Assembly (NCBI RefSeq): GCF_900104795.1
Contig: NZ_FNTG01000003.1
Coordinates: forward strand, 124,001 to 188,000
Length of the DNA stretch: 64,000 bases
Direction: 5' to 3'
From: Burkholderia sp. WP9
GTDB taxonomy: Bacteria; Pseudomonadota; Gammaproteobacteria; Burkholderiales; Burkholderiaceae
Shown: in pieces, positions 41,847-57,875 of the stretch
Position numbering within the stretch: the stretch's first letter is position 1
Layout of the letters: each line of letters starts with the position of its first letter
Translations under genes and position numbers: made by a program
The notes under the pieces: model-generated
The model's database searches: none
The model's input: the letters and a program-made list of their open reading frames with translations, nothing else
Told to the model about the DNA's origin: nothing

Positions 41847-42161
41847 GGCCGTACCCTTGTTTGAGTTTAAAACGCTCTGAGCCTCTGCACGTCAGCGCTT
41901 GGCAGATTTTAGACTTGCTTGGCGCCGCGGTGAACGCAATGTATGGTTCAGTTTCAGACAATCTTACATATGCCCAACACTGCTGAGGTTCGGGTTGGCT
42001 CGAAGGGCACTGCCGTCTTGAGAAATTGACATAAAACCTGGTGAGCACCCATCGACAGTGTAGAGGCTAAGTTGTAATGTCCGCTTTTAGCCAAGTTCAA
42101 ATGTCCGCTTTTCCGCAGCGTAAGCTGACCGTCCGCCGGGGTTCCGGCGCGGGAGGCTTTG

Positions 42162-42791
42162 ATGGCTGCGAGCGAACGGATAACGATGACGATGCGCGAA
42201 CTGGACAGGTTCAAGGTCATTCAGGACGTCGCCGACGGCAGGCTCAAGCCGTGGCGCGCGGCAGAACGGCTCAGGCTGACGACGCGGCAGATTCGCCGCC
42301 TCGTTGGCCGGTTGCGCGAGCATGGACCGGAAGGTCTCGTGTCGCGTCGGCGCGCGAAGCCCAGCAACAACCGCCTGGATTCAGTGAAGGCCGATCAGGC
42401 GCTCTCGATCATCCGTGACCGCTATGCCGATTTTGGGCCGACACTGGCCTGCGAGAAGCTGGTCGAATCTCACGGCATCCGGCTTGCCAAGGAGACCGTC
42501 AGGCGCCTGATGACGGATGCAGGTCTCTGGGTGCCCCGGCGGCAGCGGCCGCCAAAGATCTACCAGCCACGCGCGCGGCGCGCGTGCCTGGGCGAACTGA
42601 TCCAGATCGACGGCAGCGATCACCGGTGGTTTGAGGACCGGGCACCGGCCTGCTCGCTGCTGGTGTACGTCGACGACGCGACCAGCCGGCTGATGATGCT
42701 GCATTTCACAGCCACTGAGTCGACCTTCAGCTACTTCGAGGCGACGCGCGCGTACATTGAACGTCATGGCAAGCCCGTCGCGTTCTACAGC
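42162..42791 (+). pseudogene. ISNCY transposase, N-terminal part
   Basis: The ATG at 42162 follows GGGAGG by 5 bp. The 210 residues before the break contain an N-terminal helix-turn-helix (AAERLRLTTRQIRRLVGRLR), a linker and the start of the DDE integrase core (GELIQIDGSDHRWFEDR, then YVDDATSRLM with the next acid). The frame breaks in HGKPVAFYS, where the IS21-family element begins. The chimeric frame runs on to a stop at 42882-42884 inside the IS21 end. The rest of the transposase is at 56297. The family call is from motif memory. Confidence 0.82.
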
Positions 42792-42918
42792 TGTGAATTT
42801 CCGGCATATAGGCGCCATTTCGTTTTCGGCGTAATGGCGCCACCGGATTTCCGGCGTAATGGAGCCACGGCGTTTTCGGCGTAAAGGCGCCAGTAGTTTT
42901 GCGGCGTAATGGCGCCAC
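42792..42918. repeat. IS21 multiple terminal repeats, left end
   Basis: Five copies of a unit like TTTTCGGCGTAATGGCGCC are spaced through 127 bp. Two inverse copies lie at the right end (about 56239-56283). IS21 elements carry such repeats as IstA binding sites. Confidence 0.8.
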
Positions 42919-42963
42919 CCAGATGACGAGCAGCGAGGGTTCGAACTTCATTGATCGGCTAGA

Positions 42964-42984
42964 CTCCCGGCCTTTTGCCGGGAG
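42964..42984. other. Stem-loop in the istA leader
   Basis: CTCCCGGC and GCCGGGAG form a perfect 8-bp stem around a CTTTT loop, between the IS21 left end and the original istA ribosome-binding site. It may limit readthrough from outside promoters into istA. Confidence 0.45.
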
Positions 42985-43150
42985 AGGCCGTGGCCAATCG
43001 GAGGTTCGTTAGGTAAGTCAGAAAATTAGGTTCGGTTGAATATGAGGCAGCGGATTGGGGAGGCCCTTCCCGGGGTTGTGAGGCTATCGTCTGGCCCGGG
43101 AAGGGAACTTGGGAGCGAGGTCACTCGCTCGAATGCTTCACCTAATAAAC

Positions 43151-44161
43151 TCAAAGGCTTTCCAGAAATTTGAGCAGTGAATCGGGTGGGCGATAAAAAG
43201 GCACCTTGACTCTGGGCGCTTTCACCGCCGCAAGTGCTCGGCGCTTCATTGCCTGATCTGCCTCGACATAGCCGTGCGTCGTCAGGGGGCTTTCATGTCC
43301 GAGCCAGAGCGCAACCTCGGTGATACCTACACCGGCCTGCAAGAGATGCGTGGCAACCGTGTGCCTCATGGAATGCGGGGTAATATGGCGCTTCAGAAGC
43401 GATGGACAGGTCTTCGCTGCTGCCGTCAGTGCCAGCGAAAATCGTTCAGCCACGTTTGCGCGCGTCATTGGTCCGCCATGGCGACTTGGCAGCAGCGGCT
43501 GTTCCGGTTGTAAACGCTGGTTACGTATCCAGGTGCGTATCGCTGCCGCAGTTTCACGCCATAGGGGTACGGCACGCTGCTTCCGCCCCTTGCCATGCAG
43601 GCGTACCCACGGCGTCGCAGCGAGCGTTACATCGGCTACCCGCATTCCTGTCAGCTCCGACACTCGGGCTCCAGTGTTGTACAGCAGTGCGAGCAATAGA
43701 CGGTCGCGCTGCCCGAACCACGTATCCGGATCGGGCGCACCCAACAAGGCGTGAACTTCCTCACGTGAGAGAAATCCGAGAAGCGGTCTCTCGAAACGTT
43801 TCGTTGGGATCGAGAGAATTTGTTGAGCCAGGTGCAGTGCTTGCGGACATCGCATCGTGACATAGTGGTAGAAGGTCCGTATTGCGGAAAGCCGGGCATT
43901 GCGACTGCGAATGCTATTGGATCGTGCAGTTTCGAGGTGGTCCAGAAAGGCAGTGATCAATGTGACGTCGAGCTCGTCGAGAGTTAACTTCTCGGGCGGC
44001 TTATGCAACACTTGCTGAGCGTAGGTCAATAGCATACGGAAGGTGTCACGGTATGATTCGACCGTTCTTGCACTCGCATTCTGCTGCTGCATTAGCCGCT
44101 CGACGAAGAACCGCTGGAGGAGCGAGGCAAACTCCTGTGGCTGGCTGGTGACAAGGCTCAT
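43151..44161 (-). CDS. ritC: RIT tyrosine recombinase, third gene
   Basis: A 336-residue tyrosine recombinase. The N-terminal core-binding domain has NASARTVESYRDTFRMLLTY. The catalytic domain has the first Arg in TGARVSELTGM, HSMRHTVATHLL as the HxxR box, and the nucleophile Tyr in LGHESPLTTHGYVEAD. Its start overlaps the second gene's stop (ATGA). The three RIT recombinases are thought to act together. A hairpin with 11-bp arms CCCTTCCCGGG lies downstream at 43064-43105 but has no T-run. Confidence 0.88.
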   Translation of the reverse strand: MSLVTSQPQEFASLLQRFFVERLMQQQNASARTVESYRDTFRMLLTYAQQVLHKPPEKLTLDELDVTLITAFLDHLETARSNSIRSRNARLSAIRTFYHYVTMRCPQALHLAQQILSIPTKRFERPLLGFLSREEVHALLGAPDPDTWFGQRDRLLLALLYNTGARVSELTGMRVADVTLAATPWVRLHGKGRKQRAVPLWRETAAAIRTWIRNQRLQPEQPLLPSRHGGPMTRANVAERFSLALTAAAKTCPSLLKRHITPHSMRHTVATHLLQAGVGITEVALWLGHESPLTTHGYVEADQAMKRRALAAVKAPRVKVPFYRPPDSLLKFLESL

Positions 44162-45108
44162 GTCGATTCTCCTTTGGCATACTGATGAAAGCGCTCTCCA
44201 ACGATTGCCATCAGTTCCGGCACCGCCGTACAGTACCAGTAAGTGTGGGCAACTGAAGCGTGGCCGAGATAAGTCGAGAGCGCGAGGATTGCGTGGTCAG
44301 CATCGATCCCGTGGCGGTCGGCGCGCAACAGACTGTTGGCGACAAAACTATGTCTGAAGTCATAACAGCGATGATGCGCATAATCGCCTCGTGGCAACCA
44401 CCCGAGTCGACGGCATAGGGTTTCCAACGCGCACTGGAGCGTTGGTACGCCGGCTGCCTTACCTTTGTCGAGCAGAAAAAAACGGTCGCTGCCTGGCTGG
44501 CGCACGAGGCGATCACGCTGTTGAGCATACGTGCGTAGTGCCTCTGTGGTGCTCGGATGCAATGGAATCAAGCGGCTTCGATGCCCTTTTGCTTCCTGGA
44601 CCAACAGCAGTCCCTGATCAAGATCGACGTCATTACGTGTCAGGCGTGTGGCCTCTATCGGGCGTAGTCCACTTGCTGCGAGCAGCCCGATCATGGTCTT
44701 GCAGGTCGCAGGACGCAGGCCATCCCGAGGCTGCAGGCCGGCGGTAGCTGCCATCAGCATCGATACTTCCTGTTGAGTGAAAATATGTGGCGTCAATCGG
44801 CGATAGGCTCTGCCGAGCAACCTTCCTGGCGGCACCTCGGTCACTGGATCGAAACGCTGCCAGTACCGCGCAAAACCCCGCAGCAGCTCAAGACGCCGAG
44901 CCCAAGTAAAGTATTGACTTCGTTTCGTCGATTGAGCCCATGCCACGGCGAGTTCGACGACAAGGTGTGACTGCGGGGGCGTCTGCCGATCAGCGAACCG
45001 CCCGAATTGCCGCAGTCTGGGCGCGTCGCCCACGACATTAAATCCAGCGTTGCGCCGATACGCAAGGTAGTCTTCGATGCGCTCGGTCCAAAGTCGGGGC
45101 GCATTCAT
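44158..45108 (-). CDS. ritB: RIT tyrosine recombinase, second gene
   Basis: A 316-residue tyrosine recombinase. The ATG at 45108 overlaps the first gene's stop (ATGA); a longer start at 45126 is possible. Catalytic landmarks are LLAASGLRPIEATRLTRNDV, RCYDFRHSFVANSLL and LGHASVAHTYWYCTAVPEL. The N-terminal region (IEDYLAYRRNAGFNVVGD) is the usual SAM-like domain. Middle position and overlaps on both sides are typical of RIT operons. Confidence 0.88.
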   Translation of the reverse strand: MNAPRLWTERIEDYLAYRRNAGFNVVGDAPRLRQFGRFADRQTPPQSHLVVELAVAWAQSTKRSQYFTWARRLELLRGFARYWQRFDPVTEVPPGRLLGRAYRRLTPHIFTQQEVSMLMAATAGLQPRDGLRPATCKTMIGLLAASGLRPIEATRLTRNDVDLDQGLLLVQEAKGHRSRLIPLHPSTTEALRTYAQQRDRLVRQPGSDRFFLLDKGKAAGVPTLQCALETLCRRLGWLPRGDYAHHRCYDFRHSFVANSLLRADRHGIDADHAILALSTYLGHASVAHTYWYCTAVPELMAIVGERFHQYAKGEST

Positions 45109-46376
45109 GATCGATGCTCCGGCCATGGTTGCGCTACCTTGCGCAGACGATCAAGATCAACCCTGGTGTAAAGCGTCGTCGTGTTGAGATGTCTGTGCCC
45201 CAGTACATCGGCAACTTCTTTTAGCGATGCCCCACCTTGAATGAGGCGGGTTGCTGCCGTGCGTCGCAACACGTGGACGCCATGAAATCGCTCGTCGAGG
45301 CCTGCACGTACAAAGGCGCCTCTGATGAGGTGATTGATGGCAACGGCGTCAATCGGCATGTCGTACGGCGCGATTTGCCGGACAAAGACGGCACGATTAC
45401 TCGTATCGGGCCGTCCGTATTGTAAATAGCGGACAAGTGCGTGGGCCGTTTGTACCGGCAGCGGTAGCTTGCGTTCTCGTCCGCCCTTGTTATGAGTCAG
45501 CGTCACCGTTCCATTCTGCCAATCGAATGATTCCAACTGCAGTCGCACGACTTCCATGCGACGTAGCGCCAAATCGGTCAAAAACCGTGCAATTGCGAAA
45601 TCGCGCATGCCAATCGGTTTGGTCAAATCGAACGCTGCGAAAAAGAGATCCAGTTCCCTCTCGGTCATCGCAATCGGCAGAGGCGCCGGCATTGGTGGCG
45701 CCATCTTCGGGATCGCAGCGAAGAGAGCACGAGTGTCATCTCCGTTCAAGCCACGAAAGCGCAGATAACTTGCGAGATCAACGCAGTAGCTACGACGTGT
45801 CCCGTGACTCCGGCCTTTGAAACAGCGTGCGGTGAAGTCCTCAATATCCATTGAAGTCAGGTGACCGGCAGACACGGACCCCTGACCCTGACCGAAGACA
45901 GAGTCGAGGAAGCGGCGAATCCGCCAAAGGCGGTTACGGCAAGTGGTCTGCGCGTAACCGCAACTATCCACCAGATAATGCCTGTACAGTTCTAGTTCGA
46001 TGTCGACCGGCGTATGCAACTGAGGTCGTACGGTGCTGCACAACCCTTCCTCCTTGAGAACGGCCAGAAGATGGCGGAGAGCCGCGCGTACCGTGTTGAC
46101 ATGGCGCATACACGGTCGCGGACATCTGCAATGCGGCAAATGAACATCGACAAACTCCGTCACGAGAGCATCATCGATATCGGCAAGGGTCAACCGCTTG
46201 TTCTTGTTCAGCCGATGCGTAAAGTGACGCAAGGAGGCCAGATAGTGTTGAATCGTATCGTCCGCATATCGCAGGGCAAGCAAGTGATCAACGTATTTGG
46301 AGACGATGGCGTCTACGGGGCTCCCGATAGCTATGCCACAGCGCGATGAGTCCGCCGCCAATTTGCTGACAGTCAT
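45105..46376 (-). CDS. ritA: RIT tyrosine recombinase, first gene
   Basis: About 423 residues from the ATG at 46376, chosen because GGAGG lies 5 bp upstream on the minus strand; the frame is open to 46487. It has a two-part N-terminal region including a Cys/His-rich patch (VHLPHCRCPRPCMRH, residues about 90-105) that might bind metal. The catalytic domain shows ALRRMEVVRLQLESF, HVLRRTAATRLIQGG and LGHRHLNTTTLYTRVDLD. It is the longest of the trio and the first transcribed. Confidence 0.88.
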   Translation of the reverse strand: MTVSKLAADSSRCGIAIGSPVDAIVSKYVDHLLALRYADDTIQHYLASLRHFTHRLNKNKRLTLADIDDALVTEFVDVHLPHCRCPRPCMRHVNTVRAALRHLLAVLKEEGLCSTVRPQLHTPVDIELELYRHYLVDSCGYAQTTCRNRLWRIRRFLDSVFGQGQGSVSAGHLTSMDIEDFTARCFKGRSHGTRRSYCVDLASYLRFRGLNGDDTRALFAAIPKMAPPMPAPLPIAMTERELDLFFAAFDLTKPIGMRDFAIARFLTDLALRRMEVVRLQLESFDWQNGTVTLTHNKGGRERKLPLPVQTAHALVRYLQYGRPDTSNRAVFVRQIAPYDMPIDAVAINHLIRGAFVRAGLDERFHGVHVLRRTAATRLIQGGASLKEVADVLGHRHLNTTTLYTRVDLDRLRKVAQPWPEHRS

Positions 46377-46528
46377 GATGTCCTCCATGAACCAACGTAT
46401 GCATCGGTAGGAGTACACCGAAATTAGGTGCGCTTCAACAAAGGTCGCATCGCGGCTCTCTACGATACAGTCCGCGTACAAGGGCACTCACCGTGTCGCC
46501 TCTGAACCTAATTTCCGCCCGTGCCTAA

Positions 46529-46560
46529 CGAACCTTAGGTGAAGCTTCACCTAAGGTTCG
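46529..46560. repeat. Perfect 32-bp palindrome at the RIT right boundary
   Basis: The half-site CGAACCTTAGGTGAAG is followed directly by its exact reverse complement, with no spacer; the centre is an AAGCTT site. The outer bases overlap the RIT inverted repeat on one side and the duplicated AGGTTCG on the other. It lies 2 bp before the istA start codon. Confidence 0.9.
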
Positions 46561-46562
46561 AG

Positions 46563-47310
46563 ATGTACCAATACCGACAGATCCTGGTGCGCATGCGCCG
46601 AGGCGACTCTGACCGGGATATCGCACGATCGAAGACCATGGGGCGCAAGAAGATTGCGCAGGTGCGGGAGATTGCCGCCAGGAACGGATGGTTGGCGCGT
46701 GAAGCGGTTTTGCCCGACGAACACGTAATGGCCGCTTTCCTGGATCGCAAAGAGGCGCCGCTACCATCGAGCTGCGTCTCAACGTTGGAACCGTGGCGGG
46801 AGCAGATCACCAAGTGGCGGGCAACCGGAGTTCAATGCACGACGATCCACTCCACGCTCGTTCGCAACCACGGATACGGCGGCAGCTATTCGTCGGTCTA
46901 TCGTTTCCTTCTGCATATAGATGCATCGCACACGCCCGACGTGCCGCTGCGCCTGGAATTCAAGCCGGCCGAAGCGGCCCAGGTTGATTTCGGCGCTGGT
47001 CCGATGATGACCGACGCGCTCACCGGCGAGATCCACAAGACATGGTTCTTCGTCATGACCCTGGCCTGGTCGCGCCACCAATATGTTGAGTTTGTCCGAG
47101 ACCAGACGGTAGCAACCTGGCTGGGATGTCACCGGCGCGCGTTCGAGGCATTTGGTGGTGTGCCGGCTCGGGTCATCATCGACAATTGCAAGTGTGCGAT
47201 CACGCGCGCGTGCTATTACGAGCCCGAGGTGCAACGCGCGTACGGCGAGTGCGCAGAAGGATACGGTTTCAAGATTGATGCTTGTCCGCCAAGGGATCCG
47301 CAAAAAAAGG
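46563..47310 (+). pseudogene. istA: IS21 transposase IstA, N-terminal part
   Basis: The ATG at 46563 gives MYQYRQILVRMRRGDSDRDI, the classic IstA start with its helix-turn-helix. The DDE core begins with AAQVDFGAGPMM (first Asp) and continues to RVIIDNCKCAI (second Asp). The frame ends in DPQKK at the junction with the serine-recombinase element and meets a stop at 47315. The RIT insertion separated the gene from its original GGAGG, but the palindrome supplies an AAGG 6 bp before the ATG. Joined to 54635-55410 it gives 507 residues in frame. Confidence 0.9.
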
Positions 47311-47318
47311 CATAGGCT

Positions 47319-48564
47319 TCATATTGCACCTTGTGTGGTTGATTGAACAGCGTTAAGCGTCGGAGCAGTCGAACTGTAGCGCCCACCTTGCCCTTTGACG
47401 AGGACGACATTGCCCACGGGCTCGAACAGACAGCGATGCAGGTTGCCGTAACGATGCTGGCGCAAGAATCCGCTTTGCCCCCACTGGTAGATGGTGGTCG
47501 CGCACACGCCGAGTTGGGCGGCGAGCTCGTCGGCGGTGAGCATGCCGCGCTCTCGTAGGCGCGTAAAGCGGCTCTTAAGTTTATAGGCGTTGCGGATGAC
47601 GATGACCTTCTTGTGGGTGAAGGCCTCACCTTTCCAGTTCTTGTAGCCGAGCTCGTTGAGGTGCTTGGCGACTTGCCGGTCCGAACAGGTTTCGAGCAAT
47701 TCGTCGACCTTCGCAACAACCTCTGGCAGCGTCTTGCGAATCAAAGCGATGGGCTTGCGTTTGTCGACCATCAGTGAGGTTGTTTGACCGCCACGGAAGC
47801 GAACATGGATCGCGATCTGCTCATTTTTTAAAAGTGTGACGTCCTCAATGAGCAGACCGAGCATCCGTTTGCGTTCGACGGGTTCAACACGCGTGTCGTT
47901 CCAGACCACGGCGAAGTCAGCAGCCAGTGCTCGAATGCGCGCACGCGCTTCGTCGGCAAGCAAACGCTGGTCGGCCATGCGTTGGCGGTCGTGCTCCTGT
48001 TGCAGATCGTCCAGTTGCCGAAGGCGGGCATTCCAGTCGGCTTCCAAAGCGTCAGCGACCATGCGGTTGGCAGGATCAACATTCATATAACGTCGGCGGG
48101 CGAGTTCGGCGTCGTAACGCGCCCGCTCCAGCTGCCGGTTGCGCATCGCGTTCGCCTGTTCAATGCGCCCAGCAATCTCGTCCTCGACGGCGAGAGCGAC
48201 TTCGATGGCCGCGGGCGCAACAGTCTGTAGCAGCAGTGAACTGATCGCCAAGTCCACATCGCACCCGCGTATTGACTGACACGGCTTGCCTGCACGATGC
48301 GCAACAGCGGCGTGACACACATAGTACGGCTCGAGTGTGCTGGTCACCCTCTGATACCGGACGCGCATGCGTTGACCGCATACGCCGCACATCACGCGTC
48401 CCTGCAACAGCCCGACACCTTCGCGCGGCATAGCGCCCCGGCTGCCATCAGAGAAACTGCTAGAGCTTTGCTTGAGCGTCACCTGATTGCGCTCAAACTC
48501 GTCCCAGTCGATATAACCCGCGTGCGCGTCGCGGATCAATACCTCCCAATCACGCTGGGCGACC
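47319..48564 (-). pseudogene. Large serine recombinase, C-terminal part
   Basis: This piece continues the recombinase after the IS5 insertion (LKVAQRDWEVLIRDAHAG across the rejoined junction). It contains the zinc ribbon (GVLLQGRVMCGVCGQRM-type Cys pair, then YYVCHA and GKPCQ), a long coiled coil (residues rich in Arg/Glu, RQLERARYDAELARRRY) and C-terminal DNA-binding segments including DELAAQLGVCATTIYQWGQS. All of these are typical of large serine recombinases. On its own the piece has only a TTG start and no catalytic domain. Confidence 0.88.
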
Positions 48565-48568
48565 TTAA

Positions 48569-49733
48569 GGCTACGCTGAAAAAGGTCAACGGCATTGGGC
48601 GTTCAATCGTTAGATGTGCATGAAACAACAGACCCTTGCGATGGCGGCCGATCAAGGCGCCGGATTTGAACAGTACCGTCGGCCAACCAAACGCGATGTG
48701 TTCCTTGAGACGATGGAGCAGATCGTGCCGTGGGCGCAATTGTGCGAGGTTGTCGAGCCGTACTATCCGAAGGGTCAAGGCGGTCGCCCGCCAGTGGGTC
48801 TGGAGCGCATGCTGCGCATGCACTTTGTGCAGCACTGGTTCAACCTGGCGGATGAGGCGTGCGAGGAGGCGCTGCTGGACAGCACCGCATTGCGGCGATT
48901 CGTCGGGATTGACCTGGGGCGCGAGCGGGTTCCCGATGGCACGACGCTGTTGAAGTTTCGCCGGCTGCTGGAGCGCAACAAGCTCGGCGAGCAGTTGTTC
49001 TCCAAGGTCGGCGAAGTACTGCAAGGGCATGGGCTGAAGGTTGGCACCGGCACGATCGTGGATGCCACCATCATCGGTGCGCCCAGTTCCACGAAGAATG
49101 CGGACAAGGCACGAGACCCCGAAATGCATCAGACGAGGAAGGGCCAGCAGTGGTACTTCGGCATGAAGCTGCACATCGGTGTGGATAGCCAGACGGGACT
49201 GGCACACAGCGCGGTAGTGACGGCGGCAAACGTGCATGACAAGCATCCGCTGCCGGCGCTACTGCACGGCGACGAGCGGCGTGTGTACGGCGACAGCGCC
49301 TATGCGAGCCAGAAGGAACTCATCGCCAGCAAGGCGCCGAAAGCGAAGGACTTCACCAACCAGCGTGTGCGCAATCGCAGTGGTGAAGTCGATGAAACCA
49401 GGCGCTCGAAAAACCGCAACAAGTCGAAGATTCGTGCCCGGGTCGAACACGTCTTTGCGGTGGTCAAGCGGCTGTGGGGCTTCGGCAAGGTGCGCTATCG
49501 CGGCCTCGCGAAGAACGCCACGCGTGCCTTTACTGCACTCGCGCTGGCCAACATCTACATGAGCCGCGCGCGGCTGATGGCACAGGTGCGTCCATAAGCA
49601 GCCGAAATGGGTCGAGAGCCCCGCTTGCCAGGCCCTTCAGGGCCGGGAAATCGAACCGGTCGCATCGCTGATCTCACATTCCGGAATTCAGCATCAAGCT
49701 GTCGGCGAAAACGGTGGCTTCTTCAGCGTAGCC
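48569..49733 (+). mobile_element. IS5-family element inserted in the serine recombinase gene
   Basis: The ends GGCTACGCTGAA (48569) and its inverse TTCAGCGTAGCC (ending 49733) form terminal inverted repeats. The 4-bp duplication TTAA flanks the element (48565-48568, 49734-49737), matching the YTAR target of the IS5 group. Total length is 1165 bp, normal for the group. Confidence 0.92.
48614..49597 (+). CDS. IS5-family transposase
   Basis: A 327-residue DDE transposase, apparently intact. An ATG at 48620 is an alternative start. The N-terminal domain has RDVFLETMEQIVPWAQLCEV and PVGLERMLRMHFVQHWFNL. The catalytic residues are in TGTIVDATIIGAPSS (Asp), VYGDSAYASQ (Asp) and KIRARVEHVFAVVKRLWGF (Glu). 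A complete gene with matching ends suggests the element may still be active. Confidence 0.92.
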   Translation: MCMKQQTLAMAADQGAGFEQYRRPTKRDVFLETMEQIVPWAQLCEVVEPYYPKGQGGRPPVGLERMLRMHFVQHWFNLADEACEEALLDSTALRRFVGIDLGRERVPDGTTLLKFRRLLERNKLGEQLFSKVGEVLQGHGLKVGTGTIVDATIIGAPSSTKNADKARDPEMHQTRKGQQWYFGMKLHIGVDSQTGLAHSAVVTAANVHDKHPLPALLHGDERRVYGDSAYASQKELIASKAPKAKDFTNQRVRNRSGEVDETRRSKNRNKSKIRARVEHVFAVVKRLWGFGKVRYRGLAKNATRAFTALALANIYMSRARLMAQVRP

Positions 49734-50003
49734 TTAAGTTGTGTACTTGTCAAATCGGCCTTGCGCGCGATTCGTGTTCGGCCGTACACGAATGCGCCGG
49801 CGTATCTGGGGTTGTGCAGGATCTGCAGGACACGCGACGTGTTCAGCTCACCCCAATGCACTTCACCCTTACCGATGCCGCGGAGGATTCTGCGGGGGAA
49901 GACCCAACCCTCGCGGCGAAACCGGCGCACCACCATGCTGGCCGAATGCGTCTGCCTATAGGTATCGAACAGCAACTGCAGACTCGCATGAATTTGCTTA
50001 TCG
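49734..50003 (-). pseudogene. Large serine recombinase, middle part
   Basis: This piece lies between the IS66 and IS5 insertions. It encodes part of the recombinase domain, from the IS66 duplication (reading DKQIHASLQLLFDTYRQ) through VVRRFRREGWVFPRRIL and LNTSRVLQILHNPRYAGAF to the IS5 junction. When both elements and one copy of each duplication are removed, the three pieces form one open frame of 694 residues. Confidence 0.88.
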
Positions 50004-50089
50004 GTAAGCGGTAATTTCGGCTCATCTGGAACATGCGGGTGAGAGGGAACAAGATTGCGTCCGCAGCTTACACATTGCGGACGCAACTT

Positions 50090-50581
50090 ATGACTGACCT
50101 ACAAACTGACTTTGACTTCCTGCCCCTGCGGGTGATCGGCAAATCGGCCGACGGCAAGAACCGGTACGACCGTGAGGGCAAGCGCAAGCTGATCGAGGCG
50201 TGCCAAAAGCCTGGGGCCTCCGTGGCCGGGCTGGCGCTGAAGGCTGGAGTGAACGCCAACCAGCTTCGCAAATGGATTAGCCTGGCGCGCCAAAAGACAC
50301 GTCCCCGACGTGCACGGCAGTCGGCGCCAGCCATGGCACCGGCATTCGTTCCTGTTCTGGAAGTGGTTGGTGCTGAGGCGATGCACTTGCCATCCAGGCC
50401 GGCGCTGCCCGACGCTGAGCCAGTTGCGGCACGGCGCGAGCCGATGCGGGCCTCACAACGCCCGCCGTTGCCTTCACGGCTGGTGGCGCAATTGCCCAAC
50501 GGGGTAAGTCTTGAACTTGAATGTGCGCAACAGGACACGGCACTGCTCAGGGCGATGATCGACGCATTGAGGAGTCGCTGA
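50090..50581 (+). CDS. tnpA: IS66 accessory protein TnpA
   Basis: A 163-residue protein from ATG 50090; the longer frame upstream runs into the terminal repeat. Residues about 20-65 form the helix-turn-helix (REGKRKLIEACQKPGASVAG, then GVNANQLRKWISLARQ). The rest is a Pro/Arg-rich linker and a C-terminal beta segment (LPNGVSLELECAQQD). TnpA is needed with TnpB for IS66 transposition. The stop overlaps the tnpB start (TGATG-type overlap). Confidence 0.9.
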   Translation: MTDLQTDFDFLPLRVIGKSADGKNRYDREGKRKLIEACQKPGASVAGLALKAGVNANQLRKWISLARQKTRPRRARQSAPAMAPAFVPVLEVVGAEAMHLPSRPALPDAEPVAARREPMRASQRPPLPSRLVAQLPNGVSLELECAQQDTALLRAMIDALRSR

Positions 50582-50949
50582 TGCTGCGCTTCGCCGATGA
50601 CCTGCACGTCTACCTGTACCGCGAGCCGATCGATTTCCGTTGCGGCATCAACACCCTTGCCGCCCTGGTTGAGGAATCGATGCAGTTGGACCCGCTCGCC
50701 CGTGCCGTCTATGCATTCCACAACCGCAAATGCGATCGCATCAAGCTTCTGCTGTACGAGCGCACCGGTTTCTGGCTGCTGCTGCGTCGGCTCGAGGAAG
50801 ACCGTTTCGTGTGGCCCCGGCGGAATCAGGAGGTGATCGAACTGACAACGCAGCAGCTTCACTGGTTGCTCGACGGCATCGACATCGACGGCATCGACAT
50901 CGACGCGCTTCGTCGTCATCCCGTGCGCCATTACCAGCACGTCAGCTAG
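50581..50949 (+). CDS. tnpB: IS66 Orf2 protein TnpB with 15-bp internal duplication
   Basis: A 122-residue protein whose ATG uses the last base of the tnpA stop. It has the family landmarks VYLYREPIDFRCGINTLAAL, ALVEESMQLDP, RDRIKLLLYE-like KCDRIKLLLYERTGFWLLLR, and FVWPRRN. Near the C-terminus a 15-bp tandem repeat (50872-50886 and 50887-50901) duplicates five residues to give DGIDIDGIDID, where most relatives have one copy. The duplication keeps the frame. Confidence 0.92.
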   Translation: MLRFADDLHVYLYREPIDFRCGINTLAALVEESMQLDPLARAVYAFHNRKCDRIKLLLYERTGFWLLLRRLEEDRFVWPRRNQEVIELTTQQLHWLLDGIDIDGIDIDALRRHPVRHYQHVS

Positions 50950-51039
50950 CCCGATGCGTTGCACGTAAACAACGGCAGGCGCGCCATTTACGAATTGACG
51001 TAAACCCACGGCGCACTGCGTTTCGCTATCCTGGAGTGC

Positions 51040-52680
51040 ATGAAGAATGCACCCGACCTCAAACGCGTACCCAGGGCGGTCCAGGGCTATATCCACGCTC
51101 TCCAGGCACGTGTAGCCGGCGACGCGAAACATATCGGCGAACTGAACCAGCGCGTCGAGCAACTCGAGGAGCAGCTCCGCCTGCTGCAGGCCGAGCGTTT
51201 CGCACCGAAAAGCGAAAAACGCAAAGATCGCGTGTTCGACGAAGCCGAGCAGATTGCACGGACCGAACCGGGCGACGAAGACGATGACGGTGTCCAGCCT
51301 GAGCTGCCCGACACCGGATTGCCACCGGCCAGCCAGCCTGAACGACGCAAGGCCGGACGCAAGCCATTGCCGGCGTACCTGACGCGTGAACCAGTCGAAT
51401 ACGACCTGCCGGAGGACCAGCGCGGCTGCCCCTGTTGCGGCAATCAGCTGCATCGCATCGGCGAGGACGTCAGCGAACAGTTGCACGTCGAGGTCAAGTG
51501 GACAGTCCGCAAGAACGTGCGTTCCAAGTGGGCGTGCCGGCACTGCGAGCGGCACGCCGAACATACCCCGGTCGTGCTTGCGCCGATGCCGGTTCAGCCG
51601 ATCCCGGGCAGCCATGCGGACGCATCGGTGATCGCGACGGTCGCGAGCGCGAAGTACGTCGACGGCATGCCGCTGTACCGGATGCAGGAGGCACTCGCGC
51701 GCTGGCAGATCCCGGTGAGTCGCGGCACGCTCGCCCACTGGATCATTCGCCCCAGCGAACTGCACTACAGCCGCCTGTATGATGCGCTGCATAAAACGTT
51801 GCTGTTGCAGCCGCTGATCCACGGCGATGAAACGACGGTTCAGGTACTCAAGGAACCCGGCAGATCCGCGCAGAGCAAGAGTTACATGTGGTGCTACCGC
51901 AGCGCCCAGGACTGCGCCGAGCCCGTGGTGCTGTTCGAGTACCAGCCGGGGCGTGGCCAGGAGCATCCGAAGAAGTTCCTCGGCGACTACAGCGGCATGC
52001 TGATGAGCGACGGCTACAGCGCCTGGCGCACCTTGAAAAAGGCAAAGCACTTCGGCTGCATGGCTCACGCCCGCAGGCTGTTCGTCAAGGCGGACAAGGC
52101 CGCCGCGAAAAAGACGGACTCCGGCAAGCAGAAGATGCCGAACGCTCGCGTGGCGAAGGCGCTTGAGTACTTCCAGGCCCTGTACCGTGTCGAGGCGCTG
52201 GCCAAAGGCGATCTGCCTACTGGCCTGACGCGAGCCGACTACACGTACGACCTGCGGCAAAAGCACAGTGTGCCGCTGCTTGAGTCCTTCAAGGCATGGC
52301 TCGATGAACTGGCGCCGAAGGTGGCGCCCCAGAGCCTGCTCGGCAAGGCGATTGCCTACACGCGCAACCAATGGGAATATCTCAGCCGCTACGTCACTGA
52401 CGGTTGCGCCGCAATCGATAACAACGTGATCGAGCGCGATATCAGGCCGTTTGCTACTTCAAGAAAATCGTGGCTGTTCAGCGACACAGTTGATGGCGCA
52501 AAGGCCAGCGCCACGATCTACAGCCTGGTCCTCACATGCCGGGCCTGCGGCGTCGAGCCGTACGACTATCTGCTGCATGTACTCACGGAGCTGCCGCAGC
52601 GTGCGCCGGATGCCGACGTGACCGACCTGCTGCCGTTCAATTATGCGCGGCAACAACAGGCCAAGGCACAGACCGGCTGA
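51040..52680 (+). CDS. tnpC: IS66 transposase TnpC
   Basis: A 546-residue transposase. An N-terminal coiled coil (IGELNQRVEQLEEQLRLLQA) is followed by the zinc-finger region (RGCPCCGNQL, later KWACRHCERH), the IS66 catalytic core beginning near PIPGSHADASVIATV with HGDETTVQV, the Asp region in SDGYSAWRTL, and the C-terminal IDNNVIERDIRPFATSRKSW box. No frameshift or stop is seen, so the element may be mobile. Confidence 0.95.
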   Translation: MKNAPDLKRVPRAVQGYIHALQARVAGDAKHIGELNQRVEQLEEQLRLLQAERFAPKSEKRKDRVFDEAEQIARTEPGDEDDDGVQPELPDTGLPPASQPERRKAGRKPLPAYLTREPVEYDLPEDQRGCPCCGNQLHRIGEDVSEQLHVEVKWTVRKNVRSKWACRHCERHAEHTPVVLAPMPVQPIPGSHADASVIATVASAKYVDGMPLYRMQEALARWQIPVSRGTLAHWIIRPSELHYSRLYDALHKTLLLQPLIHGDETTVQVLKEPGRSAQSKSYMWCYRSAQDCAEPVVLFEYQPGRGQEHPKKFLGDYSGMLMSDGYSAWRTLKKAKHFGCMAHARRLFVKADKAAAKKTDSGKQKMPNARVAKALEYFQALYRVEALAKGDLPTGLTRADYTYDLRQKHSVPLLESFKAWLDELAPKVAPQSLLGKAIAYTRNQWEYLSRYVTDGCAAIDNNVIERDIRPFATSRKSWLFSDTVDGAKASATIYSLVLTCRACGVEPYDYLLHVLTELPQRAPDADVTDLLPFNYARQQQAKAQTG

Positions 52681-52831
52681 CGCACCGAACGCGCGCCGGT
52701 CATCATGACTGCGCGCGCTCCCATCACCCCGATGCAGACATCGCCGGTTGATTTTAACCGCCGAGGTGCGGCTACGCTCGGCCGTCACTTGCAAATGATT
52801 CTCGATTCGGCGTGCTAAATTCACCGCTTAC

Positions 52832-53408
52832 GCTTATCGGGGTCCAGCACAGCCGATCCATTGGGGTGGTAGACCAAGCCGATGGGCAGCGGCATTTCGA
52901 GCTCACCGCGCCTCGCCTTGTTGCGGATGCCACCCTGCAGTCTCGCCTTAAGTACATGCAGCTCCGCTTCGCTCATGGTGCCCTTCAGGCCAAGGAGAAG
53001 ACGGTCATTGAAGTAAGCCGGATCATAGACACCGTCTTCGTCGAGAATGAGTGTGCGGGTCAGCGCTGCGAGCTCGATCAGACGGTGCCAGTCTGCGTTG
53101 TTGCGTGCGAGACGGGATACTTCCAGCCCGAGTACGATTCCAGCGTGGCCGATAGCAACCTCCGACACCAATTTCTGGAAGCCGTCGCGCTGCTGCGCGC
53201 TGGCTCCTGACAAACCAAGGTCGCAATCGATGACATGAACGCGCTCGATCGGCCAGCCTAGCGCGACAGCACGGTCGCGCAGCGCGTACTGGCGCTTGGT
53301 GCTTTCAGTGTTCTCGAATACCTGTCGTAGCGAAGATTGCCGCACGTATAGAAAGGCGTCGCGCTGCAGATGGTCAGCCGTGACTTTCTGGTATCGATCA
53401 GTAGACAT
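52832..53408 (-). pseudogene. Large serine recombinase, N-terminal catalytic part
   Basis: The ATG at 53408 overlaps the stop of the upstream small frame. Residues 1-192 carry the resolvase domain: the nucleophile Ser lies in FLYVRQSSLRQVFENTEST, followed by YALRDRAVALGW, CDLGLSGASAQQRDGFQKLV, and the Arg-bearing LGLEVSRLARNNADWHRLIE. The start of the recombinase domain (LPIGLVYHPNGSAVLDPDK) is interrupted by IS66 at 52832. Continued at 50003 it stays in frame. Confidence 0.9.
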
Positions 53409-53698
53409 GGACGAGCTCCGAATGAGTGTGCAGCACGAGACTGGCTAACAGGCGAACAAACTCGCCATCCGCCTGTAGTGGATACGCGATGGGTTCGTGT
53501 CCAGGAGCGGGAGTGCTTTGGGTCGCCGCCGTTTCAGCGAGCATGGGAAGGCCGTGCAGCATGCCGTGGTAACGCAATGCTGCAACGCCCTCTGGACGAG
53601 GCGCACCGTCGATCACAGCGGTGCGTAACGCCTCGTACGCGGCGATTGTCGCTCGCGCCGGGGATGCGCCAGCGAGTGCGGGATTTACGGTTTTTTTT
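53398..53698 (-). CDS. Small frame overlapping HTH gene and recombinase start; possible frameshift extension
   Basis: Reading from the A9 run, this frame encodes about 99 residues (TVNPALAGASPARATIAAYE, ending ELVHVY). It overlaps the recombinase start by 11 bp. No ATG or GTG start with a ribosome-binding site is evident. It would be reached by a -1 slip on the nine A residues (minus strand, 53691-53699) at the end of the HTH gene. The sequence looks like a conserved helical protein (ALRTAVIDGAPRPEGVAALR). It could instead be a separate gene with a rare start, or a gene broken by an indel. Confidence 0.5.
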
Positions 53699-54149
53699 TG
53701 CGCGCTATTGCGCGTTCGATGCTGCGGGGATGAACAGAGATGCCGAGTTCGGTTTCGAGTTGCCCGGCCAATGCACGAGCGTGAACTGGTCCAACGCCTT
53801 CGATGCGCTTCTCGATGAAGACCATCACATTGGTGCTGAGCTTGTGCGCGCCTTTCGGTCCGCGCTGCTTCGGCATGAGCCCGGGTAATCCATCGCGCGC
53901 GAACGCCTCCTCCGCCTGATAGAAGGTCGGGCGAGACACCCCAAACAGCGCTGCGGCTTCGGCCTTGGATGCGCCATCGACGTGGACGTGGCGGAGCATC
54001 TCGTATTTGACCTGAATGAGATCGTTCGCATCGAAGAAGTCGCCGGAGTGAAACCACGGCGCGCGAACGCGTTCTGGATGAGGATTGCGCACGCCAAGAC
54101 GATTCAGGCGTTCGAGCTTCGGATCGGGTTTCTTCAAAGCGTTGTTCAC
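53685..54149 (-). CDS. Helix-turn-helix protein of the serine-recombinase element
   Basis: About 154 residues from the GTG at 54149; the upstream open frame (to 54305) is AT-rich and unlikely to be coding. The protein has SKAEAAALFGVSRPTFYQ as helix-turn-helix (residues about 55-75), then EEAFARDGLPGLMPKQRGPK and a C-terminal LETELGISVHPRSIERAIAR. This resembles the N-terminal DNA-binding half of some transposases, used here as a stand-alone regulator or targeting protein. It ends in a Lys run encoded by nine A residues. TTATGCCG-type motifs lie upstream. Confidence 0.7.
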   Translation of the reverse strand: MNNALKKPDPKLERLNRLGVRNPHPERVRAPWFHSGDFFDANDLIQVKYEMLRHVHVDGASKAEAAALFGVSRPTFYQAEEAFARDGLPGLMPKQRGPKGAHKLSTNVMVFIEKRIEGVGPVHARALAGQLETELGISVHPRSIERAIARKKKP

Positions 54150-54243
54150 ACTGGATGTTATGTAAATTAAAATACGCCGTATATATAGAAACGTCAAGAC
54201 AAACGATGTGCTGGGGATGACGTATATCACCGTTTTCCGGCGA

Positions 54244-54314
54244 ATTATGCCGCACGTCATGGCACCGATTGAAACGTGTCGCGGCATAGTTAAATTTACA
54301 CTCACGGCATAATT
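54244..54314. repeat. TTATGCCG / CGGCATAA motifs upstream of HTH gene
   Basis: ATTATGCCGC (54244-54253), GCGGCATAG (54281-54289) and CGGCATAATT (54305-54314) lie in the AT-rich gap between the HTH gene and the DUF5372-like gene. The same motif is clustered near 35.4 kb. They may be operators for the HTH protein. Confidence 0.5.
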
Positions 54315-54585
54315 TATTTGACATGGTTCGCAGCTCCCGGCATCAGATCGTCGATCAACGCGCGCAATCGGCGCAGATCGTCAGTACGAAACCAGGAGCG
54401 GCCCGCGGCCGCCTGGGCGAAAGCGTCCGGCTCGTCGACATTGGTCCAGGACGCCAGCATCGACGCCAGCCGGCCGTTGGCGTCGTAAAACATCACACGG
54501 TCCTCACCCCAGTTCTGTCGGCGCGTAACCACGTCGACGTGCGCCCCGCGCTGAGGATGGAACGGATGAGTGATCTTGAGCGTTA
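54314..54585 (-). CDS. DUF5372-like protein
   Basis: The frame from 54532 (GTG) gives 72 residues, VTRRQNWGEDRVMFYDANGR through RTDDLRRLRALIDDLMPGAA. Upstream in the same frame the sequence continues as VTLKITHPFHPQRGAHVDV (to about 54585). This matches the DUF5372 pattern I recall, so the true start probably lies upstream at a non-ATG codon, or the start was lost. It is first in the gene order of the serine-recombinase element. The function is unknown. The small beta-rich fold and its constant association with recombinases are recalled, not computed. Confidence 0.6.
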
Positions 54586-54634
54586 CAACTGCGCGATTGT
54601 CGTCATGACAAGCAGTTGCTGACTTACGATAAGG

Positions 54635-55410
54635 GAATCGTGGAATCGGGCGTCAAATTTGTGAAGCGAGGCTTCTTGCCCTTACGCGAGTTTCGTGGCG
54701 TGGCTGACGCCAATCGCCAGGTACACGCGTGGGTGATGAACGAAGCCGGCAACCGCATTCACGGTACGACTCGCGACATGCCGCTCAAGCGCTTCGCGGA
54801 AGTTGAACGAAGCCTGCTGATCAGCTTGCCGGACGTGCTGCCGGAGCTTGCCGTGTGGGCGAAGGCCAAGGTGCACCGCGATGCTCATGTCCAGTTCGAG
54901 CAGAGTTTTTACTCGGTCCCGTATAGGCTGGTCGGCCAGGAACTGTGGCTCAAGGCGACCGACACCATGGTGACGCTGTATCGCGGGCAGGAATCGGTCG
55001 CAGCCCACGCCCGCCTTACTCGCGCAGGCGGCCGTCGCACGGTAGACGATCATCTGCCATCCGCTGCCCAGGCGTGGCAACTGCAGGACACCCAGTGGTG
55101 TTTGGCAGCTGCTGAGCAGATCGGGCCTGCCTGCTATGCCCTGGTTCAGGCGCTCTTCGGCGACAAAGTCTTAATCAAGATGCGCTCGGTGCAAGGCGTT
55201 TTGCGGCTCAAACAGAAATACGGAGCAGTCCGCCTTGAAGCTGCCTGCTCGCGCGCCAACCACTACGGCACGCCGCACTACACGGCCGTTAAAACCATTC
55301 TGCAAAAGGGATTGGATCAGCTGACGCTGTTAAACGCCTTTGATGCGCTGGCGAGCACCTACACCGAAGGCGGCCGTTTCTGCCGCAACACACAAACCAT
55401 TCTCCAATAA
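54635..55410 (+). pseudogene. istA: IS21 transposase IstA, C-terminal part
   Basis: This piece resumes IstA with GIVESGVKFVKRGFLPLREF, which carries the third catalytic acid (Glu in IVESG), after the serine-recombinase element. It continues with the C-terminal DNA-binding region (VQFEQSFYSVPYRLVGQELW). Together with 46563-47310 it makes a 507-residue protein with no lost codons. As it stands it has no proper start of its own. Confidence 0.9.
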
Positions 55411-55418
55411 GGCCGGCC

Positions 55419-56207
55419 ATGCATCCCATTCCTGAATTGACTCCACTGCTTAAGCAGTTGCGCTTGTCCGGCATCCTCGATTCGCTGGAAGCGCGAAACC
55501 GCGAGGCCATCGATCGCAAGCTCGCCTTCACCGAATTCCTTTCGCTGCTCATTCACGACGAAGTAGCCCGGCGCGATAACAAGAAGCTCAGCCTGCGCAT
55601 GCGACGCGCCAACTTCCGTAGCCAGAAGACGCTCGAAGGATTCGACTTCGACCGGCTACCAGGGCTGAATCGATCCGCTATCCATGATCTCGCCACGTGC
55701 CGATTTATTGACGAGAAGGTGGCGGTCCTGATTGCCGGGCCTTGCGGAACGGGGAAAAGCCATCTTGCGCAAGCCCTGGGACACGCTGCAGCTCGGCAAG
55801 GACACGATGTGCTGTTCTCAACACAAAGCCAATTATTAGCAAGCCTGCGCAGCGCGGCAGCCGTGGGCACTTACGACCGTCGTTTCCAGTATCTCGCCAA
55901 GCTTCCACTTCTGATCATTGACGACTTTGGTCTTAAGCCACTGCGTTCGCCAGACGATGAAGACTTCCACGACCTGATCGCCGAGCGTTATGAGCGCGCA
56001 GCAACGATTTTAACGTCGAATTTGGACTTCCCAGAATGGGGGGAAGCATTCCCAGGTAACAAGATGATCGGCGCTGCAACCCTCGACCGCTTGCGTCATG
56101 GCGCTCACAAAATCGTCCTCGACGGCGAGAGCTATCGCGGACTCAAACCGGGCGTCGAAACACTCAGAACCGAGCTTGCAAAAGGAGGCAAAATCAAGCA
56201 ACCTTGA
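55419..56207 (+). CDS. istB: IS21 ATP-binding helper protein IstB
   Basis: A 262-residue AAA+ protein starting 8 bp after istA. The N-terminal domain has LLKQLRLSGILDSLEARNRE. Walker A is AGPCGTGKSHLAQAL, Walker B is PLLIIDDFGLKPL, and the sensor region includes RYERAATILTSNLDF. IstB assists IstA in target capture. The gene looks intact, but without a functional IstA the element should be immobile unless IstA is supplied elsewhere. Confidence 0.93.
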   Translation: MHPIPELTPLLKQLRLSGILDSLEARNREAIDRKLAFTEFLSLLIHDEVARRDNKKLSLRMRRANFRSQKTLEGFDFDRLPGLNRSAIHDLATCRFIDEKVAVLIAGPCGTGKSHLAQALGHAAARQGHDVLFSTQSQLLASLRSAAAVGTYDRRFQYLAKLPLLIIDDFGLKPLRSPDDEDFHDLIAERYERAATILTSNLDFPEWGEAFPGNKMIGAATLDRLRHGAHKIVLDGESYRGLKPGVETLRTELAKGGKIKQP

Positions 56208-56296
56208 TCCCCGTTCGAGCCCTCGAATTGCCCGTTTCCAGTGGCGTCATTACGGCGAAAATGCCCGGCGCCATTACGCCGAAAGGTGACAACAGC

Positions 56297-56653
56297 GACA
56301 AGTACAGCGTGTTTCGCAGGACCGGTGCGAACAGGGATGGCAACAGCGTGACCCATTTCGGCCGGGCGATGTACGAGCTGAACATCGACACGTTCTGCGC
56401 GAACAGTAGCCCCGCCAAGGGGCGCGTCGAACGGGCACACCTGACGTTGCAGGACCGGCTTGTAAAAGAATTGCGGTTGCGTGGCATCAGCACGGCTGCC
56501 GGGGCCAATGCGTATGCGTCTGCCTTCATGGCAAATTACAACGCACGCTTCGCGAAGCCGCCAAAGAGCGGGTTTGATGCTCACCGGCCGCTCAGGGCTG
56601 ACGAGAATCTTGATCTCGTTCTGACGTGGCGCGAGCCGCGCAAGGTGAGCAAG
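56297..56653 (+). pseudogene. ISNCY transposase, C-terminal part, also truncated
   Basis: After the second ACAGC copy the frame continues the ISNCY transposase: DKYSVFRRTGANRDGNSVTH, IDTFCANSSPAKGRVERAHL with the catalytic Glu, and KELRLRGISTAAGANAYA. Homology fades after TWREPRKVSK near 56653, where relatives I recall continue with a further 50 or more residues. The frame then runs into unrelated sequence, including the element's right end, to a stop at 56836. The ISNCY element therefore carried an internal deletion as well as the IS21 insertion. Confidence 0.75.
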
Positions 56654-56928
56654 TGGTGTGAGACTAAAGGCACTAGAGACAGATACCTTAAACCCGGACA
56701 TTTGAACTTAGCCGGAAAGCGGACATTTCAGAATGGCTTTGACAGACAGACAGACATGCCAACAGGCGAGAAGACCGGCCGCATTGCCGACTGTGAGTCG
56801 CCGAAAAGACGTCGAGCAGACCGTCTACGGGCGTGACATCTGCCCCGATCACATCGAGGTTTCGGCGCCGGCCGCCTGAGTTGTCACCCGGCAACTGTCA
56901 AATCGACAACGAGAGCGCCACCTGCCGA

Positions 56929-57283: not shown

Positions 57284-57586
57284 TCAAGTGCAGGCGCGCG
57301 CGCGCTGGACCTTGGGCGCCCCTCGGGAGCGCGCTTGCCATAGGTCATACGCTGTTTGTTGGGCCAGCCACAAGTCAGCGCGGCCGCCATTCTCCACCCC
57401 GATCCACCCTTCGAGACGAAGAGCCATTTCGGGGGATATGCCGGCGTGCTCGTTCAACACGCGCGATAACGCCACACGTGAAACGCCAAGTTGGGATGCT
57501 GCCTCAGTCACCGTCAAACCAAGCTCCGGAAGGACATCCTCCCGGAGCGTTTCACCCGGGTGAGGCGGGTTAAACATTTGGGTCAT
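57284..57586 (-). CDS. higA: HigA-family antitoxin
   Basis: A 100-residue XRE-type protein with the addiction-module HigA signature: [40 protein letters not shown] as helix-turn-helix, and [19 protein letters not shown]. It lies 10 bp after the toxin gene, so the order is toxin first, as in higBA loci. HigA binds HigB and represses the operon promoter. The C-terminal tail is basic. Confidence 0.92.
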
Positions 57587-57596
57587 TCACTGAACC

Positions 57597-57875
57597 TCAG
57601 TGGTAGTCCTGGTAGTCCACCAAGACGGCGTCAGTACCTTCGAACCTGAAGGTTATTCGCCAGTTTCCATTTACCGTGACCGCATAATGGTCCGCTAGGC
57701 GCCCCTCAAGGGGGTGGCATTTCCAACCCGGCACATTCATATCCTGCGGTGACTGAGCCACATCGAGCCGGGCCAACTGACGTTTTAATCTGGATGCATG
57801 GTCTGGCCTGATCCCAGCCTTACTTCCGCTTGCGAAGAACTCCTCGAGCCCCTTGTGCCGCCATGATTTGATCAT
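57597..57875 (-). CDS. higB: HigB-family toxin (RelE/ParE superfamily mRNA interferase)
   Basis: A 92-residue protein with the HigB pattern: MIKSWRHKGLEEFFASGSKA, ASRLKRQLARLDVAQSPQDM, GWKCHPLEGRLADHYAVTVN and NWRITFRFEGTDAVLVDYQD. HigB toxins cut mRNA on the ribosome; the basic and aromatic residues of the C-terminal strands are present. GGGAGG lies 3 bp before the ATG. The operon is on the minus strand and ends at the hairpin beyond higA. Confidence 0.92.
   Translation of the reverse strand: MIKSWRHKGLEEFFASGSKAGIRPDHASRLKRQLARLDVAQSPQDMNVPGWKCHPLEGRLADHYAVTVNGNWRITFRFEGTDAVLVDYQDYH

Follow-up and report, generated by a model that had tools for sequence, protein, structure and literature searches.

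A serine recombinase element at the catalytic-Glu codons of istA within a nest of mobile elements, and its relatives in conserved motifs of other mobile genes

The locus

The stretch of DNA analyzed here (the window) comprises 64,000 nucleotides of Burkholderia sp. WP9, that is, positions 124001-188000 of the 188,748-bp contig C3 in a genome of 9.02 Mb. It carries six nested mobile elements: an insertion sequence (IS) of the ISNCY type contains an IS21, which contains a RIT element and a small element with a serine recombinase (the serine element), and the latter contains an IS5 and an IS66 element (Table 1). Such a nest was claimed in a preliminary description of this DNA and is borne out here, each of the junctions it named being readable in the sequence. 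The nest itself is ordinary plasmid accretion, and the point of interest is the targeting of the serine element, which interrupts the transposase gene istA.

Table 1. Features of the nest, in coordinates of the window (TSD, target-site duplication; HTH, helix-turn-helix)
Feature	Position	Strand	Context or evidence
ISNCY, left part, interrupted transposase	42073..42791	+	BLAST to uninterrupted relative on contig C1; HTH domains
IS21	42792..56291		inside ISNCY; TSD ACAGC at 42787..42791 and 56292..56296
IS21 left end	42792..43008	+	99.5-100% to own-genome copies, P. fungorum and P. aspalathi
AGGTTCG flanking RIT	43002..43008 (left), 46548..46554 (right)		
RIT element	43009..46547	-	Phage_integrase in all three tyrosine recombinases; inverted ends
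Palindrome at RIT end	46535..46554		
istA, part before serine element, ending at catalytic-Glu motif	46563..47308	+	
Serine element	47307 (AA) to 54632 (AA)		inside istA; empty site in L002 and L011
AA crossover dinucleotide, left	47307..47308		
Serine-element body, 3.32 kb plus IS5 and IS66	47309..54630	-	
Recombinase gene, split by IS5 and IS66	47319..53408	-	intact 694-aa relatives
IS5 family element	48569..49733	+	TSD TTAA at 48565..48568 and 49734..49737; DDE_Tnp_1; inverted repeat
IS66 element	50004..52831	+	TSD GCTTATCG at 49996..50003 and 52832..52839; DDE_Tnp_IS66
HTH protein of serine element	53685..54305	-	HTH_28/HTH_23; DNA homology at 53686..54098
DUF5372-gene homologous region, putative frame	54282..54625	-	DNA homology to L009 and L012
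AA crossover dinucleotide, right	54631..54632		
istA, part after serine element (KGIVESGV...)	54631..55410	+	comparison with relatives
istB, intact	55419..56207	+	100% to P. aspalathi relative
ISNCY, right part	56292..56730	+	BLAST; subterminal repeats pair with 42065..42116

Anatomy and ends of the serine element

The serine element encodes a large serine recombinase, an HTH protein and a DUF5372 protein, together with a small open reading frame (ORF) for which some relatives carry an annotation. The catalytic Resolvase, Recombinase and zinc-ribbon domains (PF00239, PF07508 and PF13408) were found by scanning the intact relative at locus L009 of Caballeronia SBC2 rather than the interrupted gene of the window, and together with the 2-bp crossover described below they place the recombinase among the large serine recombinases. 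In SBC2 the 694-residue recombinase is uninterrupted and aligns to the window gene on either side of its gaps, and the related serine elements at L009, L012 and L121 carry neither IS5 nor IS66. No relaxase occurs among the annotated genes of L009, L012 and L180, no relaxase profile search having been made. The predicted structure of the DUF5372 protein (mean pLDDT, a model confidence score, of 71) gave no match in the PDB at E <= 0.001; the model has four strands and helices, and a reading of the sub-threshold hits suggests an SH3-like fold. Either this protein or the HTH protein could be a candidate directionality factor.

The element had been taken for a transposon with a 4-bp target repeat, AAGG. 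Its presence stands, and AAGG does flank it on both sides, yet only AA is certainly common: some targets read AAAG and the element supplies the GG, and AAGG is rejected as a target duplication. Serine recombinases make 2-bp crossovers. Because only AA is common to both ends and to the target, the junctions are those of a 2-bp AA crossover, and we regard the element as a site-specific integrase element instead.

A common insertion site in istA

The insertion falls in the codons of the IstA catalytic-Glu motif, which read DPQKK|G-IVE in the window; we take K-G/A-x-x-E of IstA to be this motif. An intact istA of 507 codons from Paraburkholderia fungorum aligns at 97% to the window on each side of the serine element, and positions 46563-47300 match the transpos_IS21 profile up to position 224 of 294. 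In Caballeronia SBC2 (L009 and L010), an element occupies the identical istA nucleotide. The host IS21 of SBC2 is 94% and 90% identical to that of the window on the two sides, whereas the elements are only about 72% alike (67-75% by piece), and therefore the two elements arrived separately. In Aromatoleum EbN1 (L012) an element occupies the corresponding codon (KPQDKA|KVE) of another IS21, ISAzo4, and the window's own contig has a second copy (L121) in another IS21 of the ISAzo4 kind.

Could the serine element instead be cargo inherited within istA of this IS21? The single position common to the window, L009 and L012 would agree with such descent. Against it stand the greater divergence of the elements than of their hosts, the IS21 copies of the same genome that lack the element, and the close recombinases found in IS3 (L129) and ISNCY (L180) genes. 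The inheritance is refuted by two sister Caballeronia strains: L009 and L161 (SBC1) are 100.000% identical over 3,327 bp, with the identity ending exactly at AA on both sides, but L009 is in a Paraburkholderia-type IS21 and L161 in an ISAzo4-type IS21. We consider inherited cargo scarcely credible.

L009 and L010 are located on two plasmids that have in common the whole 5,950-bp IS21 with its element, flanked by the TSDs ATGGC and CCAGG, respectively. Two histories would produce this: transposition in trans of an IS21 whose istA was broken, or entry of one and the same element into two identical IS21s. We regard the serine element as a site-specific hyperparasite of IS21.

Targets of the wider recombinase family

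Searches with the SBC2 recombinase (E <= 1e-60, its own genome counted) matched 34 of 299 genomes of the family, 20 of 247 of another family, 12 of 398 of the phylum and 2 of 229 of the class; 465 plasmid records matched at 1e-30. At least 7,997 clusters of recombinase homologues were scored, not all of which need share the targeting habit. Among the matches listed, 60 stretches were chosen by hand with preference for complete C-termini, and L009 and L012 were added. These yielded 67 recombinase ORFs (none in L173 and L176), of which 8 fragments were dropped and 59 kept, and 56 non-redundant insertions were left after removal of three near-identical flanks.

Insertions within mobile-element genes at recurring conserved motifs account for 48 of the 56. 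The targets are the Glu motifs of IstA (10), IS3 (3) and ISNCY (2), TnpC (10) and TnpB (7) of IS66, the C-terminal motif YN..RPH of IS3 (5), IstB (4, with Walker A as the site in three), the reverse transcriptase (RT) of group II introns (3), the LLGH motif of tyrosine recombinases (2), IS91 near its HUH motif (1) and IS110 (1). Pfam or NCBIfam profiles, or BLAST to an intact relative, support 44 of these 48 assignments, and Pfam matches on 49 flank ORFs included rve (17), IS66 transposase (8), TnpB (4) and IstB (2). Both halves of the split gene were located, 2.5-4.4 kb apart, at 28 of the 56 loci, including L136 with its polymerase gene; the second half at L134 was matched through an antisense reading.

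Individual replicons give the same picture by reading. The element is in istA at the K-G/A-x-x-E motif in P. phymatum, S. meliloti 1021 pSymA and B. savannae (where the left istA half is recognizable as a short piece only), and in an ISNCY transposase in NGR234a (L180), so that all four named examples are in mobile genes. Four of six further plasmid matches were assigned, namely Streptomyces (IS701, at RWAIE), Bradyrhizobium (istA), Nitrobacter (IstB) and Novosphingobium (IS3), while no target was assigned for Rhodococcus (L215, where the gene is incomplete) and Aulosira (L216).

The positions at which the flanks end on the profiles are narrow. They are 221-227 of 294 on transpos_IS21 (12 of 12 scored IstA flanks), 337-342 of 387 on transpos_IS66 (10 of 10 scored TnpC flanks), 307-310 at the Glu site of transpos_IS3 (3 of 3) and 351-352 of 369 at its C-terminal site (5 of 6 scored flanks; L157 has no match there, with rve in another frame). 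For IstB they are 99-100 of 232 (3 of 3), with L162 at 102 and L224 at 101 of 238 on the Pfam model, and for the group II RT (353 positions) they are 70-71 in three flanks and 133-135 in two. The cut that defines each flank was placed 22-24 bases ahead of the stop codon of the recombinase gene, or set by hand for the window and the later loci.

In a tree of 60 recombinases, the target labels, with unassigned targets treated as one label, change 22 times, compared with a mean of 42.5 after shuffling, and none of 200 shuffles was as low. The TnpC users form a single clade of 10, whereas TnpB users occur in three places. Because IS3 and ISNCY users nest among the IstA users, targets appear to switch between unrelated IS families that have a common motif. 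The recombinase of L136, whose element interrupts the polymerase gene, falls within a group of IS3 users, and its insertion shares the TACAAG core of those IS3-targeting sisters; we read this insertion as off target, in agreement with recognition of the sequence.

Two observations concern TnpC. Related recombinases have entered it in both orientations (L144 and L145 versus L154 and L155), as would be expected if the crossover dinucleotide of that clade were palindromic. The genome of the window also holds a related serine element twice in IS66 TnpC (C3:64814-66697 and C5:149628-151511; L122 and L123), and the surrounding stretch of 5,260 bp is 99.98% identical.

Nine later loci were fetched. 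The six judged by gene were all in mobile genes by profile, with IS66 and group II RT as targets twice each, IS1634 once (57.6 bits, below the model cut-off) and IstB once (L224); outside this count are L221, L229 and L228, at the last of which the flank spans only about 80 bases and ends in a YYN motif.

Several points weigh against a general habit of this kind. The loci were chosen by the analyst, with a bias to complete C-termini. Four assignments were made by reading: L127, with HTH and weak rve only, and L142, L164 and L167, without a Pfam match. Two of the 56 insertions are outside transposase-like genes, in an error-prone DNA polymerase (L136) and a peptidase M15 (L165), and six have no assigned target (L117, L140, L147, L152, L175 and L178), among which L175 is a near-copy of L151 and L178 a fragment. 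The second gene half was not found at 27 of the 56 loci, some of which are close to the end of a contig or retain a gene piece too short for BLAST, and is doubtful at L175, where it is 7.8 kb away. IS66 TnpB is entered at 42, 63 and 80 of 90 in different clades (the short flank of L148 has no NCBIfam match but a TnpB match in another frame), and neither the TnpB sites nor the C-terminal site of IS3 is the catalytic Glu. Part of the spread in profile position is due to the flank cut, on which the end points partly depend. For four of the six later loci the target family was the one expected from the nearest relative; L224 and L226 were the exceptions.

These points bear on another explanation, in which a loosely specific transposon is found in transposases by chance, such insertions being frequent on transposase-rich plasmids. 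The loci are indeed rich in mobile elements, two insertions are in other genes, and TnpB is entered at three places. On the other hand, insertions within a clade are at nearly a single profile position, the clades are target-specific, and other serine recombinases do not have this pattern. As a control, the regions downstream of 30 other PF07508 recombinases in the phylum were taken; 27 flanks were usable and held 54 ORFs, none of which matched a transposase family (RepB was matched by 12 and ParB_N by 9), although these are the best-scoring loci, not matched by replicon, and the DNA downstream of them may lie inside the elements. Random insertion is rejected on the clustering of targets in the tree and the narrow profile positions, and we hold loose specificity to be very unlikely.

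Proposed explanation

The anatomy and exact ends of the serine element, and a site common to diverged elements and to different IS21s, can be read directly. It is very probably a small site-specific integrative element that enters, by a 2-bp AA crossover, an attB site on the catalytic-Glu codons of istA. The recombinase would join attP of the element to attB in istA through the AA crossover, presumably recognizing the site by itself, and excision may proceed through a circle. Selection should keep the K-G/A-x-x-E codons in every active IS21, so that an address on these codons would always be available, and insertion there should do the cell little harm. Transposase provided in trans may still move a parasitized IS.

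The recent movement in Caballeronia and the presence of other clades at other conserved motifs of mobile genes are observed. We lean, with some reservation, toward a broader proposal, that a large and widespread lineage lives by hunting mobile elements. Each clade would take as its attachment site the DNA of a conserved motif, often at the active site, in a transposase, helper ATPase, recombinase or RT; targets would switch between unrelated IS families with a common motif, and movement of the broken IS in trans would give the element a second ride.

Rather than a plain hyperparasite, the element might be a brake on IS activity, favored by selection and of benefit to the host replicon. The interruption of conserved, often catalytic, codons in many transposase families would suit a brake, but the IS21 with its element on two plasmids has different TSDs and so may still move, and the genome's own IS21::RIT copies persist with an open istA. 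A selected brake seems improbable to us, if less so than inherited cargo or loose specificity.

If the broader proposal is true, it would explain the persistence of many elements annotated as "recombinase family protein", for which the most constrained codons of other parasites would be a permanent, probably host-neutral address. It also suggests a natural brake on IS elements, and would provide serine recombinases whose targets are largely predictable at the level of motifs, as well as a clean system for studying how integrases change targets.

The other elements of the nest

The target repeats proposed for the other inserts hold. ACAGC flanks the IS21 and occurs once in the uninterrupted ISNCY relative on contig C1 (L006), AGGTTCG is on either side of RIT, with the empty site present in P. 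fungorum (L011), and TTAA and GCTTATCG were read at both ends of IS5 and IS66, respectively. The proposed insertion order holds as well and is refined, in that RIT and the serine element had been left unordered: RIT is the older, because the same genome has IS21::RIT copies without the serine element. The pre-insertion states for which relatives were found are the bare IS21, IS21::RIT without the serine element, and the uninterrupted ISNCY.

The ISNCY relative has 81% and 72% identity on the two sides of IS21; the label comes from homologous DNA annotated ISNCY in public records, the ISNCY profile having been run on the relative L125 only. The IS21 has istA and istB, TGT...ACA ends and a 5-bp TSD. 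IS5 has a DDE_Tnp_1 transposase, inverted repeats and a short TSD, and IS66 has TnpC domains and an 8-bp TSD, with tnpA and tnpB by ORF reading. Just outside the nest, 57284-57875 may encode a toxin-antitoxin pair, read from the ORFs, which we presume to be of the HigBA type.

The RIT element has three adjacent tyrosine recombinases and inverted ends; it lies 8 bp upstream of istA, which it leaves open. Two IS21::RIT copies on C1 and C2 (6,176 bp, mutually 100% identical, istA and istB open) have no serine element and are flanked by TTTTT and GATGA. With these distinct TSDs, IS21::RIT has therefore moved as a unit. RIT in these copies (L231 and L230) is reversed relative to the window, while the 20-bp palindrome stays on the istA side; both orientations in one genome, with the palindrome always on this side, suggest inversion at the RIT ends. 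In Caballeronia sordidicola (L037:1202-2628), another insert of about 1.4 kb with inverted ends is at the RIT site of a like IS21. In the accessible parts of two reports, RIT elements are described as trios of tyrosine recombinases of about 3.5 kb, with an inverted repeat containing a palindrome, and are known within transposase genes (PMC3414803, PMC2864759). The window RIT resembles them, as far as these parts go, in trio, size and palindromic inverted repeat, and differs in lying beside istA without interrupting it and in occurring in both orientations.

Comparison with known systems

The cluster on pNGR234a of Sinorhizobium fredii NGR234 (L180), which we take to be y4bABCD, has DUF5372, HTH, small ORF and recombinase like the window element, but it is in an ISNCY transposase at an AKx motif and not in istA. 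The serine integrase of prophage phiRv1 uses the REP13E12 repeat, a repeated mobile sequence, as attB; it differs in being one phage with one repeat family. Homing introns and inteins also use conserved catalytic codons as a permanent address, but they restore the product by splicing, whereas the serine element leaves the transposase broken.

No serine recombinase lineage that targets transposases appears in the accessible parts of PMC7168690, PMC10083194, PMC9203015, PMC3414803 and PMC2864759, and a literature search, with supplements and most subscription papers outside its scope, found no such lineage described. Large serine recombinases that target conserved genes, and a TndX-like clade with multiple targets, are reported in the accessible text of Durrant et al. 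(2022; PMC10083194). The targets named there are magnesium chelatase, prolyl isomerase and competence genes, with no transposase among the matches listed (12 of 24 places, supplements outside the scope). The integrative mobilizable elements of Streptococcus suis, according to the part of the report available, have serine integrases and are inserted inside the genes SNF2, PPI and traG of integrative and conjugative elements (PMC7168690). As far as that part goes, they are like the present elements in that a serine integrase puts an element into a conserved gene of another mobile element. They are mobilizable and target genes of conjugative elements, whereas the present elements enter motifs of transposases, helper proteins and RTs from many IS families, and no relaxase is listed among the annotated genes of the relatives.

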